Source: Myxococcales bacterium
GTDB taxonomy: Bacteria; Lernaellota; Lernaellaia; Lernaellales; Lernaellaceae
Direction: 5' to 3'
Assembly (NCBI GenBank): GCA_012517325.1
Contig: JAAYVF010000027.1
Span: 1 to 64,000 of the forward strand
DNA length: 64,000 nucleotides
The notes under the pieces are model-generated. The model ran no database searches. It was given only the letters and a program-made list of their open reading frames with translations, and was not told the DNA's origin. Below are positions 44,098-55,459 of this stretch, piece by piece. The translations under genes and the position numbers were made by a program. Positions within the stretch are counted from its first letter, which is position 1; every line of letters begins with the position of its first letter.

Positions 44098-45153
44098 TTG
44101 CATCCGATTTTATTCGAACTGTTCGGCCACGAGGTGCGGACCTACAGCATGGCGATGGCGCTGGGCTTCGTCGTGTCGATCATCCTGTTGCGCCGCCGCG
44201 CCCCGTACGAGCAGATCGACGTGAATATGGCGCTGAACATCGTGATCCTGTGCATCGTCGGGACGATCGTCGGCGGGCGGTTGATGTTCGTCATCAATAC
44301 CTGGGGCGAGCGCTTCGCCACCGAGGGAAAATCGTCGTGGGAAGTGTTTCTGGAAGCCTTCAAGGTCTGGGAAGGCGGCCTGGTGTTCTACGGCGGTTTT
44401 CTGGGCAGCATTTTGCTGGTCTGGCTGTACGTCAAAATCAAGGGAGGCGATTTCGCGGCAATCGGCGATTTTCTGGCGCCCTACGTCGGCCTCGGCCTGG
44501 CGATCCACCGGCCGTTCGGCTGCTTTATGAACGGCTGCTGCTACGGCGCGCCGACCGACCTGCCCATCGGCGTACACTTCCCGCTCGACGCCTCGGCCAC
44601 CAAGACCTGGGGCATCGACCAGGCACTGCACCCGACGCAGATCTACATGGGCTTCAACGGCCTGATCCTGTTTCTGCTGCTGCGCTGGTACCGCGAACGC
44701 AAACGCAGCCACGGCGAGGTCTTCGGCCTGCTGCTGATGGTTTACGCCTTCAACCGTTTTCTGATCGAAATCGTGCGCGGCGATAAAATCCGCGGTCACG
44801 TGCCGCTGTTCGACCTGTTGTACTTCGTGCTCTTCGCCGCCGGCCTGGCGCTTTGGCTCTACGCGCGCGGCCGCGAAAGCCGCCCGCGGCCGGTCGAGTA
44901 CCTCGGCCTGGCGCTGGCGGGGATCGCCGGCTTCATGGGTTTGTTCGGCACCGAGAGCGGCAGCCTGAACGAAACCGTCATCGAATCGCCGTTCTCGACC
45001 AGCCAATTCATCGGCTTCTTCGTGGCGGCGGCCGGCGCGGCGATGTTCTACTGGTCGCGGAAATTCGGGCCGAAAGTACAACCGGAATATGGCCGTTTGT
45101 TGCCGCCCGGCGCGCTGTCGGGCGAGGCCCCGACCGAGGAAACGGCAGGATAA
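44098..45153 (+). CDS. lgt: Prolipoprotein diacylglyceryl transferase
   Basis: A 351-residue inner-membrane enzyme with the Lgt signature near HRPFGCFMNGCCYGAPTDLPIG and about seven helices. It moves a diacylglyceryl group from phosphatidylglycerol to the lipobox cysteine of prelipoproteins, the first step for the many lipoproteins seen here. TTG start at 44098 with an AAGGAG site eight bases before. The C-terminal part after residue 260 is longer than in E. coli Lgt and adds two helices and a tail. Confidence 0.94.
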   Translation: MHPILFELFGHEVRTYSMAMALGFVVSIILLRRRAPYEQIDVNMALNIVILCIVGTIVGGRLMFVINTWGERFATEGKSSWEVFLEAFKVWEGGLVFYGGFLGSILLVWLYVKIKGGDFAAIGDFLAPYVGLGLAIHRPFGCFMNGCCYGAPTDLPIGVHFPLDASATKTWGIDQALHPTQIYMGFNGLILFLLLRWYRERKRSHGEVFGLLLMVYAFNRFLIEIVRGDKIRGHVPLFDLLYFVLFAAGLALWLYARGRESRPRPVEYLGLALAGIAGFMGLFGTESGSLNETVIESPFSTSQFIGFFVAAAGAAMFYWSRKFGPKVQPEYGRLLPPGALSGEAPTEETAG

Positions 45154-45471: not shown

Positions 45472-48400
45472 TTGAAAAACATTTCGTGTCTTCTTTTGTG
45501 TCTTTTCAGTTTTGTTTTTCTGGCTCAAAGCGGCGAAGCTCGGGAAGTCATTCCGACTACTGTAGTTTTGGAGCCGAATATCCATCATCAATCGGGTATC
45601 ACTTGGCCGCAGCCCGGCGTGATACCCGGAATGAGCCAACAGTTTTCACCTGATCTCTTTACCCTGGCGGAGCCGGATTGGTCCGCCGAATCCCACCAAT
45701 CCAATTCCTTGTTTGGTTTTTCCGCCGCCGGGGCCGGCGACGTCAACGGCGACGGTTATGCCGACATCATTGTCGGCGCTTACAGTTACGACAACGACAT
45801 TTCCAACGAAGGCATGGTTTTCGTTTATTACGGTTCGCCGTCCGGTCCTTCCGCCGCGCCCAATTGGCTGATGGATTCCAATCAGATCAACGCCCGCTAC
45901 GGTTACAGCGTGGCTTCGGCGGGGGATGTCGACGGCGACGGTTATGACGACATCATCATCGGGGCACCGCGCTATTTGAACACGGAGCTGAAAGAAGGCC
46001 GCGCCTATGTCTACCTCGGTTCCGGCGCCGGACCTTCCTTGATCGCCGATTGGATCGTGGATTCCGACCAGAAGTCGGCATCGCTGGGCGCCAGTGTCGC
46101 CTCGGCAGGCGACGTCAATGGCGACGGCTTTGCCGATGTCATCGTCGGCGCTCCGAACTACGATTACAATGAAGTTCTCAATACCGGCGCGGCGTTTGTC
46201 TATTACGGTTCGGCCGCCGGTTTGTCGGCGACGGCGGATGTTTTCATTCCGGGCGACCAGAAGCTGGCCTACTTCGGCACGGTGGTGGCCTCGGCCGGCG
46301 ATGTCAACGGGGATGGATACGACGATGTCTTGATTTCCTCGCCCCGCTACGACGCGATTTACACCAATATCGGCGCTGTTTTTCTGTTTTACGGTTCGGC
46401 AAGCGGACTCTCCACCACGCCGGACTGGGGGGATTACGGTTTTTCGAGCATGTCCTTGTTCGGCGCCGGCGCCGCCTCAGCCGGCGATGTCGATGGGGAT
46501 GGTTATTCCGATATCGTCATCGGTTCGCCCGGTTACAGCTTGAACACCGGCATTGCCTATTGGTATTCGGGCGCGCCGTCCGGTCCGGGACTCACACCCG
46601 ACGTGTCGTTTTATCTGGGAACGGCAAATTCACTTTTCGGATCAGGGGTCTCTACCGCCGGCGACTTCAACGGGGACGGATACGAAGACGTTTTGATCGG
46701 CGCCCGTTCTTACGATAACGGCTCCACCGACGAAGGGGGCGCCTTCATCTCCTTCGGCTCGGCTGCCGGCCCTTCCGCTTCCTTCGATTGGGAGGCCGAA
46801 TCCGATCAAGCCGGCGCTTTGTTCGGTACCAGCGTGTCCGACGCTGGCGATGTGAACGGCGACAATTGCGACGATATCGTCATCGGCGCTCCTTCCTATG
46901 ATAACGATCAGATCGATGAAGGCCGGGCATTTGTTTTCTACGGCAACTGCCTCGATGACGATGATGATGACGATAACGACGACAACGACGATAACGACGA
47001 CAACGACGACAACGACGATAACGACGATAACGACGACAACGACGACAACGATGATAACGATGATAACGACACGGCCGACGACGATGATGACACTGCTGAC
47101 GACGATGACGATGATAACGACGACAACGATGATAACGATGACAATGACGACAATGATGACAACGACACGGCCGATGATGACGACAATGACGACAACGATG
47201 ACAACGACGACAACGATGACAACGACGACAACGATGACAACGATGACAACGATGACAACGACACGGCCGACGACGATAACGACGACACTTCGCCGGCCGA
47301 TGACGACAACGATGATGCCTCACCGACCGATGACGATGACAATGACTCGTCTTCCGGTGATGATGACCTGAACATCAGCCCGGAACCGGATCATTCCGAG
47401 GAAAGCGGCTGGACGCACGGCGGCGGCGGTTGTTCGATCGCCGGACCGGGCAATGATGACGACACGGCGCTGTGGCTGCTGGCGCCGATTGGACTGGCCC
47501 TTGGCCTGCGGAAACGCTTTTTTTTTCGCCTTCCGCTGAAGACGGCGGCGACGGTTTTCCTGGCGCTCTTCGCTCTTAATCTGGGCGCTTCGCCGGCGCG
47601 GGCCGATAAACCGGGGATGAACGTCCAGCTCTGGCGGCTCAATCCCGACGGTTCCGGTTTCGGTTCCGTTTGGGGGTCGCCGTCGTTGCGCTTTCTCGGT
47701 TTCGGCGGCGGAATCTACGCCGACTATGTCAACAATCCGTTGGTCTATGAAATGGAAAACGGTGACGTTCACAGTCTGGTTCGACAACGAACCGACTTCA
47801 GCTACTACGGCGCTTTCGGACCGCTGCCGATGGTGAACGTCATGGTGAACGGTCCTTCGCTGGTCATTCAAGATCTGAACAAGAATTTAACCGATGGCGA
47901 AACCCAGGTCGGCGACGAATGGCGGTTCGGCGCCAAAGGGAGCATTCTCGATCGCGAAAAGGCGCCCGTTGGCGTGGGCGTCAAATTCGAGGTGACCTCG
48001 CCGACCGGCAGCGCTCACAGCTTCGCTTCGGACGGCGACACGATCTATCTCCCCGGCGCGATCGTCGATTGGGAAAATCGCTACGTCATTCTCGCTTACA
48101 ACCTGGAAGTCATTCTGCGGCCGCAAACGCGGCTGCTCAATGAACTGCACATCAAGGACGAATTGGGACAGCGGCTCGGCGCGGCTTACAAAATCGACCG
48201 GCGCGGCGATCTGGCTTTCGTCGAACTCGACAATCGCGCGCCCTTCGACGATTTTTATTCGCAGGAATCGCTCAATCCGCTGGAACTGGTCGGCGGCGCA
48301 AAAATTACGATCTGGGACGGCCTCAGTTTCCACGCCGGCGTCGGCGCGGGCCTGAACCAGGGCGTCGGCAGTCCCGATTACCGCCTCGTCGGCGGCCTGA

Positions 48401-49101
48401 GCTGGTTCCGCCGCGGCATGGTTCCCAAACCGCCGGTGCTCGATCGGGACGGCGACGGCATTTTGGACGACCGCGATCAATGCCCGGAAGTCAAGGAGGA
48501 TTTCGACGGCTGGCAGGACGACGATGGTTGTCCGGACGTCGATAACGACGGTGACGGCATTCCGGATTCAGCCGATTCATGTGCCAACGAAGCCGGCCCC
48601 CTGGAACTGCACGGCTGTCCCGACAAGGATACGGACGGGGACGGCATCATGGACTCGCAGGACAAATGTCCCACGACCCCCGGCGTCAAGGAATTCGACG
48701 GCTGTCCGCCGCCGGCTTACGACAAGGTGCAGGTGACCAAGGACCAGATCCAGATCAAGGAGAAGATCCAGTTCAAGGTCAACAGCGCCGTTATCCTGCC
48801 GGAAAGCTACGAACTGCTGAACCAGGTGGCGCGGGCGATCAAGGATTACAACCTCAAACTCTTGCGCATCGAGGGCCACGCCTCGTCCGAGGGCAACAAG
48901 CAGCATAATCTGCGGCTGTCGCAGCAACGCGCCGAGGCGGTGCGCGCCCGGTTGATTATCCTGGGCATCGCGCCGGATTCGCTTCAGGCGCAGGGATTCG
49001 GCGACCAGGTGCCGATCGCTTCCAACGCGACCGGCGCCGGCCGGGAGAAAAACCGCCGCGTCGAATTCAAGATCCTGGCCGCCCCGGAGAAAGTGGAATA
49101 A
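45472..49101 (+). CDS. Giant fusion: FG-GAP surface protein with C-terminal sorting tail, joined in frame to an OmpA-family protein
   Basis: 1209 residues from a TTG with a GGGGGCAGG site. Part 1: signal peptide, seven FG-GAP repeats (each like AGDVNGDGYADIIVGA, calcium-binding, seven blades) to about 490, Asp/Asn tract 495-625, then GGGGCSIAG (Cys654), one hydrophobic helix and LRKR, a MYXO-CTERM-like sorting tail ending near 682. Part 2 begins without a stop: a second signal peptide (from LKTAATVFLAL, cut near SPARA), a barrel-like region, thrombospondin type 3 calcium repeats (~985-1080) and an OmpA peptidoglycan-binding domain (IEGHASSEGNKQHNLRLSQQRA). The join is a run of nine T. With eight T the first protein would end seven codons later, overlapping a CTG that would start the second. 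These are probably two genes; see findings. Confidence 0.75.
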   Translation: MKNISCLLLCLFSFVFLAQSGEAREVIPTTVVLEPNIHHQSGITWPQPGVIPGMSQQFSPDLFTLAEPDWSAESHQSNSLFGFSAAGAGDVNGDGYADIIVGAYSYDNDISNEGMVFVYYGSPSGPSAAPNWLMDSNQINARYGYSVASAGDVDGDGYDDIIIGAPRYLNTELKEGRAYVYLGSGAGPSLIADWIVDSDQKSASLGASVASAGDVNGDGFADVIVGAPNYDYNEVLNTGAAFVYYGSAAGLSATADVFIPGDQKLAYFGTVVASAGDVNGDGYDDVLISSPRYDAIYTNIGAVFLFYGSASGLSTTPDWGDYGFSSMSLFGAGAASAGDVDGDGYSDIVIGSPGYSLNTGIAYWYSGAPSGPGLTPDVSFYLGTANSLFGSGVSTAGDFNGDGYEDVLIGARSYDNGSTDEGGAFISFGSAAGPSASFDWEAESDQAGALFGTSVSDAGDVNGDNCDDIVIGAPSYDNDQIDEGRAFVFYGNCLDDDDDDDNDDNDDNDDNDDNDDNDDNDDNDDNDDNDDNDTADDDDDTADDDDDDNDDNDDNDDNDDNDDNDTADDDDNDDNDDNDDNDDNDDNDDNDDNDDNDTADDDNDDTSPADDDNDDASPTDDDDNDSSSGDDDLNISPEPDHSEESGWTHGGGGCSIAGPGNDDDTALWLLAPIGLALGLRKRFFFRLPLKTAATVFLALFALNLGASPARADKPGMNVQLWRLNPDGSGFGSVWGSPSLRFLGFGGGIYADYVNNPLVYEMENGDVHSLVRQRTDFSYYGAFGPLPMVNVMVNGPSLVIQDLNKNLTDGETQVGDEWRFGAKGSILDREKAPVGVGVKFEVTSPTGSAHSFASDGDTIYLPGAIVDWENRYVILAYNLEVILRPQTRLLNELHIKDELGQRLGAAYKIDRRGDLAFVELDNRAPFDDFYSQESLNPLELVGGAKITIWDGLSFHAGVGAGLNQGVGSPDYRLVGGLSWFRRGMVPKPPVLDRDGDGILDDRDQCPEVKEDFDGWQDDDGCPDVDNDGDGIPDSADSCANEAGPLELHGCPDKDTDGDGIMDSQDKCPTTPGVKEFDGCPPPAYDKVQVTKDQIQIKEKIQFKVNSAVILPESYELLNQVARAIKDYNLKLLRIEGHASSEGNKQHNLRLSQQRAEAVRARLIILGIAPDSLQAQGFGDQVPIASNATGAGREKNRRVEFKILAAPEKVE
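46954..47346 (+). repeat. Tandem GAC/GAT/AAC tract encoding the Asp/Asn linker
   Basis: About 390 bases of 9-base units of the form GACGATAAC/GACAACGAT, interrupted by ACGGCC (Thr-Ala) at intervals. All units are multiples of three, so the frame is kept. The longest of the Asp/Asn tracts in the window. It also produces long spurious antisense Val/Ile or Ser/Leu frames. Confidence 0.9.
47518..47526 (+). other. T9 homopolymer at the junction of the sorting tail and the OmpA part
   Basis: Nine consecutive T bases form three Phe codons directly after LRKR. Removing one T gives FFFAFR and a TGA at 47537-47539. That TGA overlaps CTG (47536-47538), the first codon of the second signal peptide. This is a natural slippage site and also a frequent place for sequencing errors. 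Confidence 0.8.
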
Positions 49102-50788: not shown

Positions 50789-50977
50789 GCGATGTTCCTC
50801 GTTTGCGTGGAGCGATGAAGGCGCCGCCGGAGAAGATTATAGTTCGATCGCCGGCCCGAGGAAAACGGTCCGGCGGACTTGGTTTTGCGGCATTCGTTTC
50901 CGGTGTATGATTTCCTGCGGTGTCGCCGCGGATTCGCCAGTCAACTATCGGCACAAGAAAACAAAGGGGGCTCGGTC

Positions 50978-52495
50978 ATGGCCCGGCTGCTGCTTTTCTT
51001 TTCGCTTTCGTTTTTGATCTTGCTCCTCGGCTGCTCGTCCGGCGACCCCGGATCAAGCCCGGGGCAGGCTCAAGATGACGACGATGATGACAATGACGAC
51101 GACAACGACAACGACAACGACAACGATAACGACAACGACGATACCGCCGCGCCCGCCGATCCCTATATCCGCGATGAGCAGGGTCGCGCGATGATCCTGC
51201 ACGGCTGCAATTTCGACGGCAACGCCAAGGGCGATTCGGGCCTGCCGCAGCGCACCGAGGCGGACGCAATCGAGTTGGCCGAGGTCTGGGGCTTCAATTT
51301 CGCGCGCTACCTGATTTTCTGGGCGCGGATCGAACCCACGGCCGGCGTCTACGACGAGGATTACCTGGATGCCGTCGCGGAACGGCTCGACTGGCTGGGC
51401 GACGCCGGCATCACCGTCGTGCTCGACATGCACCAGGACCTCTGGGGACCTTTCATCACCGAGGAATGGGGCGGCAGCGACGGCGCGCCGGAATGGGCGA
51501 CGATCACCGACGGCTGGCCCTACATTCCTTTCAGCCAAATGCTTGGCGGTTGGGCGTTCGATTACCTGTCGCCGGCGGTGATCCGCGCCTTCGACAATTT
51601 CTGGAGCTACGACCGTCATCCCGAATTGCAGGACCATTACGCCGCCATGTGGGCGCACGTCGCCGAACGGTTCCGCGATCATCCGGCGGTACTCGGCTAC
51701 GATCTGATGAACGAGGCGTGGCAGGGTTCGGGGCTTTTGCGGTACCGCGACTTCGATCAAAACGAGTATTCCGCATACAACCAGCGGCTGATCGACGCCA
51801 TCCGCCAGGTCGACGCCGACCGCTGGATTTTCTATGAGCCGACCGCGTTTTTGACCAACCAGGGCGGACCGATGTACGTGCGGGTGCTCGACGATCCGCG
51901 CGACGGGCCGAACCGGCTCGCTTATTTTCCGCATCTGTACCCCTTGCCGATCGAACTCGCGGGCGGTTACCTGCCGGAAGTCGACCATACCCTCGATAGC
52001 TGGGAGCGCCATGGCGCCGCGGCGGCCGAACGGCAGAGCGCGCCGTTGTTGGCGGGCGAGTGGTCGATGCTCTCCTATTTCGACGACGACAATCATCGGC
52101 TGTGGGTGAACGAGGCCCTGCGGATGCTGGAGCGGGTGAGCGGCGGTTGGTCGTACTGGGATTGCAGTTCGTTCCAGGAGTCTGCCGACGCGACGTTCCA
52201 AGCGATGGTGGCTGCTTCGTATCCGCGCCGCGTCGCCGGAACGCCGGTTTCCTACGGTTACGATCCCGCGGCGGGCGCGCTGACGCTGGTTTTCGACGAG
52301 CGTTCGGGCGTCTCCGGACCGACCGAGATCTACCTGGCGGTCTCGCGCGATTATCCGGCGGGTTGGACGCTCGAGGTCAGCGATCCGACGGGCGCCTGGT
52401 CGTCGGATTGGGACGAGGACGCCCAGGTGCTGTCGGTCTGGACCGACCCGAACACCCCGACGCACACGATCATCGTCGCGCCCGCCGCCCGGTGA
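50978..52495 (+). CDS. GH5 (endoglycoceramidase-related) lipoprotein with Asp/Asn linker
   Basis: A 505-residue lipoprotein: lipobox LLLGC (Cys19, Ser at +2), acidic linker 33-55, then a GH5 barrel. The strand-4 motif YDLMNEAWQG carries acid/base Glu246 and LLAGEWSML carries nucleophile Glu361. WARIEP and LDMHQDLWG also match endoglycoceramidase-type GH5 members. A C-terminal beta domain follows. It may cut glycolipids or beta-glycans at the cell surface. The ATG at 50978 is chosen for the signal peptide. Followed 32 bases later by the SMP-30-like lipoprotein. Confidence 0.85.
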   Translation: MARLLLFFSLSFLILLLGCSSGDPGSSPGQAQDDDDDDNDDDNDNDNDNDNDNDDTAAPADPYIRDEQGRAMILHGCNFDGNAKGDSGLPQRTEADAIELAEVWGFNFARYLIFWARIEPTAGVYDEDYLDAVAERLDWLGDAGITVVLDMHQDLWGPFITEEWGGSDGAPEWATITDGWPYIPFSQMLGGWAFDYLSPAVIRAFDNFWSYDRHPELQDHYAAMWAHVAERFRDHPAVLGYDLMNEAWQGSGLLRYRDFDQNEYSAYNQRLIDAIRQVDADRWIFYEPTAFLTNQGGPMYVRVLDDPRDGPNRLAYFPHLYPLPIELAGGYLPEVDHTLDSWERHGAAAAERQSAPLLAGEWSMLSYFDDDNHRLWVNEALRMLERVSGGWSYWDCSSFQESADATFQAMVAASYPRRVAGTPVSYGYDPAAGALTLVFDERSGVSGPTEIYLAVSRDYPAGWTLEVSDPTGAWSSDWDEDAQVLSVWTDPNTPTHTIIVAPAAR

Positions 52496-55236: not shown

Positions 55237-55459
55237 ACGGTCATGATATCCGGGATTTGCGAATATTGAACCGTTTCGGCAACCCGTCGACCTCACGGAA
55301 ATGCCGAGACGGACCCTCGAAAATTCGTGGATCGGCGCGCCGGCCGGGCGTTGCGCAGGTTTTTTTTTCGTCGCGGCGAGGCAAAACAACCTCCCGAGCT
55401 TGCCAAGCAACGATAATAGGTCAGGATTTTCGTATTGTAATATAGTTATTAGCGATAAA

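Follow-up and report, generated by a model that had tools for sequence, protein, structure and literature searches.

A TraAB-like gene pair probably fused in frame, with an internal MYXO-CTERM tail and a nine-T tract at its join

The window, the whole 64,000-nucleotide stretch of DNA analysed here, carries an open reading frame (ORF) that runs uninterrupted over 1209 codons, from an FG-GAP surface protein through a MYXO-CTERM tail and into a barrel-OmpA protein. We read it as two genes of a TraAB-like pair truly fused in frame, with a probability of about 0.58 and with the nine-T tract at its join (T9) read from one assembly. The window is probably a real, independent case of an architecture that is known but rarely described. 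The features of the locus, all on the + strand, are as follows:

44098–45153, +: lgt, the upstream neighbour on the same strand (Pfam LGT, 179.3 bits)
45472–49101, +: fusion ORF with a TTG start, 1209 aa, FG-GAP surface protein plus barrel-OmpA protein (open frame)
45472–45540, +: signal peptide 1 (LKNISCLLLCLFSFVFLAQSGEA), read from the sequence
45709–46956, +: seven FG-GAP repeats, outer bounds approximate (Pfam PF01839, 7 stretches, 154.5 bits)
46951–47379, +: Asp/Asn linker (sequence)
47419–47517, +: internal MYXO-CTERM tail, comprising GGGGC, a transmembrane (TM) helix and RKR (TIGR03901)
47518–47526, +: T9 tract at the join (sequence)
47536–47539, +: CTGA, where a reading with eight T (T8) puts the stop TGA (47537–47539) over CTG in a four-base overlap (sequence)
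47536–47604, +: internal signal peptide 2 (LKTAATVFLALFALNLGASPARA) with an AxA-type site (sequence; hydropathy peak 1.96)
47698–48411, +: outer-membrane beta-barrel, 12 long strands predicted (AlphaFold2, mean pLDDT 78.7, pTM 0.53)
48447–48716, +: thrombospondin type 3 calcium-binding repeats, bounds approximate (Pfam TSP_3; sequence)
48772–49056, +: OmpA peptidoglycan-binding domain (Pfam PF00691, 73.8 bits)

This anatomy, together with the arithmetic of the T8 and T9 readings, had been given by a sequence-only reading of the same DNA, and the ORF, Pfam, TIGR03901 and the readings of the T tract bear it out base for base. The internal tail scores 23.2 bits against the 20-bit cut-off of TIGR03901; the C-terminal position that goes with that family is not what is found here, as 527 residues come after the tail. 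Hydropathy analysis of the window gives a loop with 5 Lys or Arg and 0 Asp or Glu between the MYXO-CTERM helix and the helix of signal peptide 2. The predicted barrel matches FapF and a COG4313 channel at 11–15% identity in Foldseek, which is a resemblance of fold only.

The architecture has a precedent in MXAN_5598 of Myxococcus xanthus, in which a large adhesin region, an internal MYXO-CTERM, an outer-membrane barrel and OmpA lie in one ORF (Guo, Haft and Wall 2025, PMC11980579). Its authors suggested that two genes may have fused in it, likened it to TraA plus TraB with their overlapping genes, and placed it between ftsA and ftsZ (PMC11980579). The window has the parts that define this type, an internal MYXO-CTERM, a signal peptide, a barrel and OmpA in one frame, and, as in MXAN_5598, an adhesin-like part precedes them in the single ORF. 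It differs in its FG-GAP repeats and Asp/Asn linker, and in adjoining lgt rather than lying in the fts cluster. An internal sorting signal in a giant protein, which the sequence-only reading had thought would be new, is thus already on record in MXAN_5598 (PMC11980579), and we find such fusions in several genera.

These fusions come from a search of 116 genomes in the class of G034, a genome with no rank below the domain in common with that of the window. Thirty loci were returned, and in 22 of them the tail, a basic loop, a second signal peptide and the barrel lie in one frame, a proportion that should not be taken as a frequency for the family, since a fused query had these 30 as its best matches; in the other 8 a stop precedes the barrel. 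The fused loci span several genera, and some are in genomes assembled as one contig. Two fused junctions examined as DNA have no homopolymer, which we count in favour of genuine fusion. So do we count the position of a fused gene in G129 between ORFs that are FtsA-like and FtsZ-like (by sequence motifs, not family search), as for MXAN_5598, and the hairpin with a basic loop shared by four fusions: the window and four myxobacterial fusions alike show two hydrophobic peaks with a loop of 4–5 Lys or Arg between them. Another copy in G034 (C37) lacks OmpA but has the tail, the signal peptide and the barrel. A scan of genome contigs returned a single distant myxobacterial locus.

In M. xanthus, the TraA and TraB genes share a four-base overlap (PMC3325183). 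A true TraB in G034 (C32; 998.6 bits against the NF033763 cut-off of 700) has an ATG that, from its coordinates, overlaps the stop of a MYXO-CTERM gene as ATGA. These overlaps in G034 and M. xanthus count in favour of a genuine fusion of a TraAB-like pair, because the window shares with TraA/TraB the order of a MYXO-CTERM protein and then a barrel-OmpA protein, and its T8 reading would place CTGA where the G034 pair has ATGA, in the same four-base geometry although with no standard start codon. Unlike TraA/TraB, the window is fused, scores 205.6 bits against NF033763, under the cut-off of 700, and gave no Pfam match to the TraA features (PA14 domain, Cys-rich repeats) anywhere in the ORF, the matches being to FG-GAP and OmpA families.

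The same geometry is what an error would leave behind. The sequence-only reading had put forward two alternatives, a fusion or slippage on the one hand and an indel hiding two genes on the other, and we judge these to be the right ones. An indel in the assembly, or a mutation of one strain, that conceals two genes with a four-base CTGA overlap is in our view an unlikely explanation, though one with weight. Such errors typically fall in homopolymers, the T8 reading yields exactly the TraAB overlap, and a stop closes the other tails in the genome and its class. The T9 tract begins at the first base past the TIGR03901 match, which ends at 47517. With eight T the first protein would end RKRFFFAFR-stop, its TGA overlapping the CTG at 47536, and with ten T (T10) it would end FFFSPSAEDGGDGFPGALRS-stop, so that both readings terminate it shortly past the MYXO-CTERM tail. 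Against an error, the only candidate start for the second gene at the T8 overlap is CTG, the alternative being a GTG 63 bases upstream, and this limited choice we count in favour of a real T9. In the frame of the barrel as sequenced, no ATG, GTG or TTG was found near the join. The fusions that recur elsewhere require no error, and they favour a real fusion over one.

Other long runs in the same assembly also bear on the error reading. The ORF at G000:C3:24049-26559 (L183) joins glycosyltransferase-like and radical SAM-like parts (families by sequence reading) with an A10 run at the join; we considered it as a second false fusion and rejected this, as four relatives (G001, G003, G004 and G005) carry the same single ORF, and the assembly therefore has the right frame there. 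The T9 pattern is rare in the genome of the window, with 61 matches in 5.25 Mb, a count that includes overlapping matches; individual T runs were examined from 30 loci. Apparent genes contain several further runs of at least nine, and the frames continue open through them, as through an A9 run in an apparent PAS-domain protein, which argues against an indel. A T9 inside a gene is thus not unique; the unusual feature is its location exactly at the join, and as this was noticed post hoc we assign no probability to it. A second T9 run in the window (55360–55368) lies between ORFs of at least 150 aa. The T9 at the join was also considered as an intrinsic terminator and rejected, with no terminator-like site called there and RNA folding around it no better than in shuffles.

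The genome of the window and its class supply the evidence that we count against fusion, namely other tails that end at a stop and paralogous pairs that are separate. All 14 other tails measured there (10 fetched loci plus four more from the window's own genome, some under the TIGR03901 cut-off) have a stop 0–18 residues past the match, against 527 in the window. In the window's genome, FG-GAP or Cys-tailed surface proteins adjoin barrel proteins as separate genes at C79, C42 and C100. From these side-by-side genes, surface proteins are repeatedly paired with barrels in the lineage, and of the loci examined there only that of the window has the two fused.

Endings of another kind were seen alongside these tails. 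In 14 distinct ORFs from this genome and its relatives, a number that is not a rate because the search pattern chose endings with Cys near the stop, an acidic Asp/Asn-rich stretch and Gly/Ser lead to a Cys 0–6 residues from the stop (C-terminal ends of L085, L095, L072/L041, L073, L049, L044, L047, L037, L038, L033, L034, L052, L054 and L055). Examples are SCGCGC-stop and GGGCGSLFR-stop, too short for a TM helix or Arg cluster, and by their residues these endings look like the MYXO-CTERM signature minus its helix. Within the window, a glycosyl hydrolase family 5 protein (50972–52495) carries an apparent lipoprotein signal followed by an N-terminal Asp/Asn linker.

The T9 tract could also be put to use. 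In many bacteria, A/T runs of nine bases are prone to slippage (PMC1088944), and the window resembles the 9A/9T slippage genes of that study in having a T9 run with alternative ends in other frames; by analogy, slippage at this tract is possible. Functional transcript slippage on a genomic T9, or ribosomal frameshifting on U9, would make mostly fusion with a fraction of chains stopping after the tail, and these would add free surface protein, so that surface protein would exceed barrel. Stops just past the tail in both the T8 and T10 readings agree with this, as do the known use of slippage by 9A/9T genes and the selection against slippage at nine A/T in many genomes (PMC1088944). The two other junctions read as DNA lack such a tract, and no structure beyond that of shuffles lies near it, and we consider functional slippage rather improbable.

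If the fusion is genuine, its barrel bears on whether it arose once or more. In a tree of barrel domains, the window groups with unfused barrels of its own class, apart from the fused myxobacterial ones (99/95), a further difference from MXAN_5598, as is the window's lineage, which has only the domain in common with G034. The tree requires at least two changes of state between fused and unfused, and the window branch is long (1.28). Common descent of the window and the MXAN_5598-type fusions was not recovered in this tree with its long window branch. Because its barrel branches away from the fused myxobacterial barrels, the window fusion looks, on sequence grounds, independent of theirs.

In the genuine fusion, signal peptide 1 would export the FG-GAP part, the MYXO-CTERM helix would stop transfer and leave RKR in the cytoplasm, and signal peptide 2 would restart export, so that the chain would cross the inner membrane as a hairpin; the two hydrophobic peaks and the Lys/Arg loop fit a hairpin whose loop is cytoplasmic. 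To judge from the predicted signals, a myxosortase may cut after the tail Cys, and the Cys may be lipidated, perhaps by Lgt, while signal peptidase I would cut after SPARA, the predicted site of signal peptide 2. From the two cuts, a surface lipoprotein and a barrel-OmpA anchor would result as separate products, equal in amount. In the genome of the window, a CPBP protease scores 118.3 bits against the cut-off of 100 for NF040914 Mrt_core and under the cut-offs of MrtX, MrtP and MrtC, an assignment to the myxosortase family at the core level only; its passing the core cut-off we count for a genuine fusion. For MYXO-CTERM proteins, Lgt has been put forward as the candidate acyltransferase (PMC11980579), and we draw no operon conclusion for lgt and the fusion gene given the gap of 318 bases between them. 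As to origin, an overlapping pair was probably brought into one frame when a single base changed within the T tract, after which the ATG of the second gene, no longer needed as a start, would have been lost.

Two other readings also accept the fusion. It is very unlikely that the chain stays uncleaved as a single protein spanning surface and cell wall; one continuous frame is consistent with this, but both predicted processing signals are intact and the genome encodes the myxosortase-family protease. We also think it improbable that the locus is a bacterial polyprotein made on purpose, with hairpin threading, two proteases, independent appearance in two lineages and slippage at T9 tuning the ratio.

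What makes a genuine fusion interesting is that the architecture recurs outside the class in which it was described, rather than that it is a new kind of system. Should the T9 tract be real, fusion of the adhesin/barrel-OmpA pair has occurred two or more times. This suggests joint action of both products at a constant ratio, and a workable route to two envelope proteins from one chain by way of an internal sorting tail with an internal signal peptide after it.
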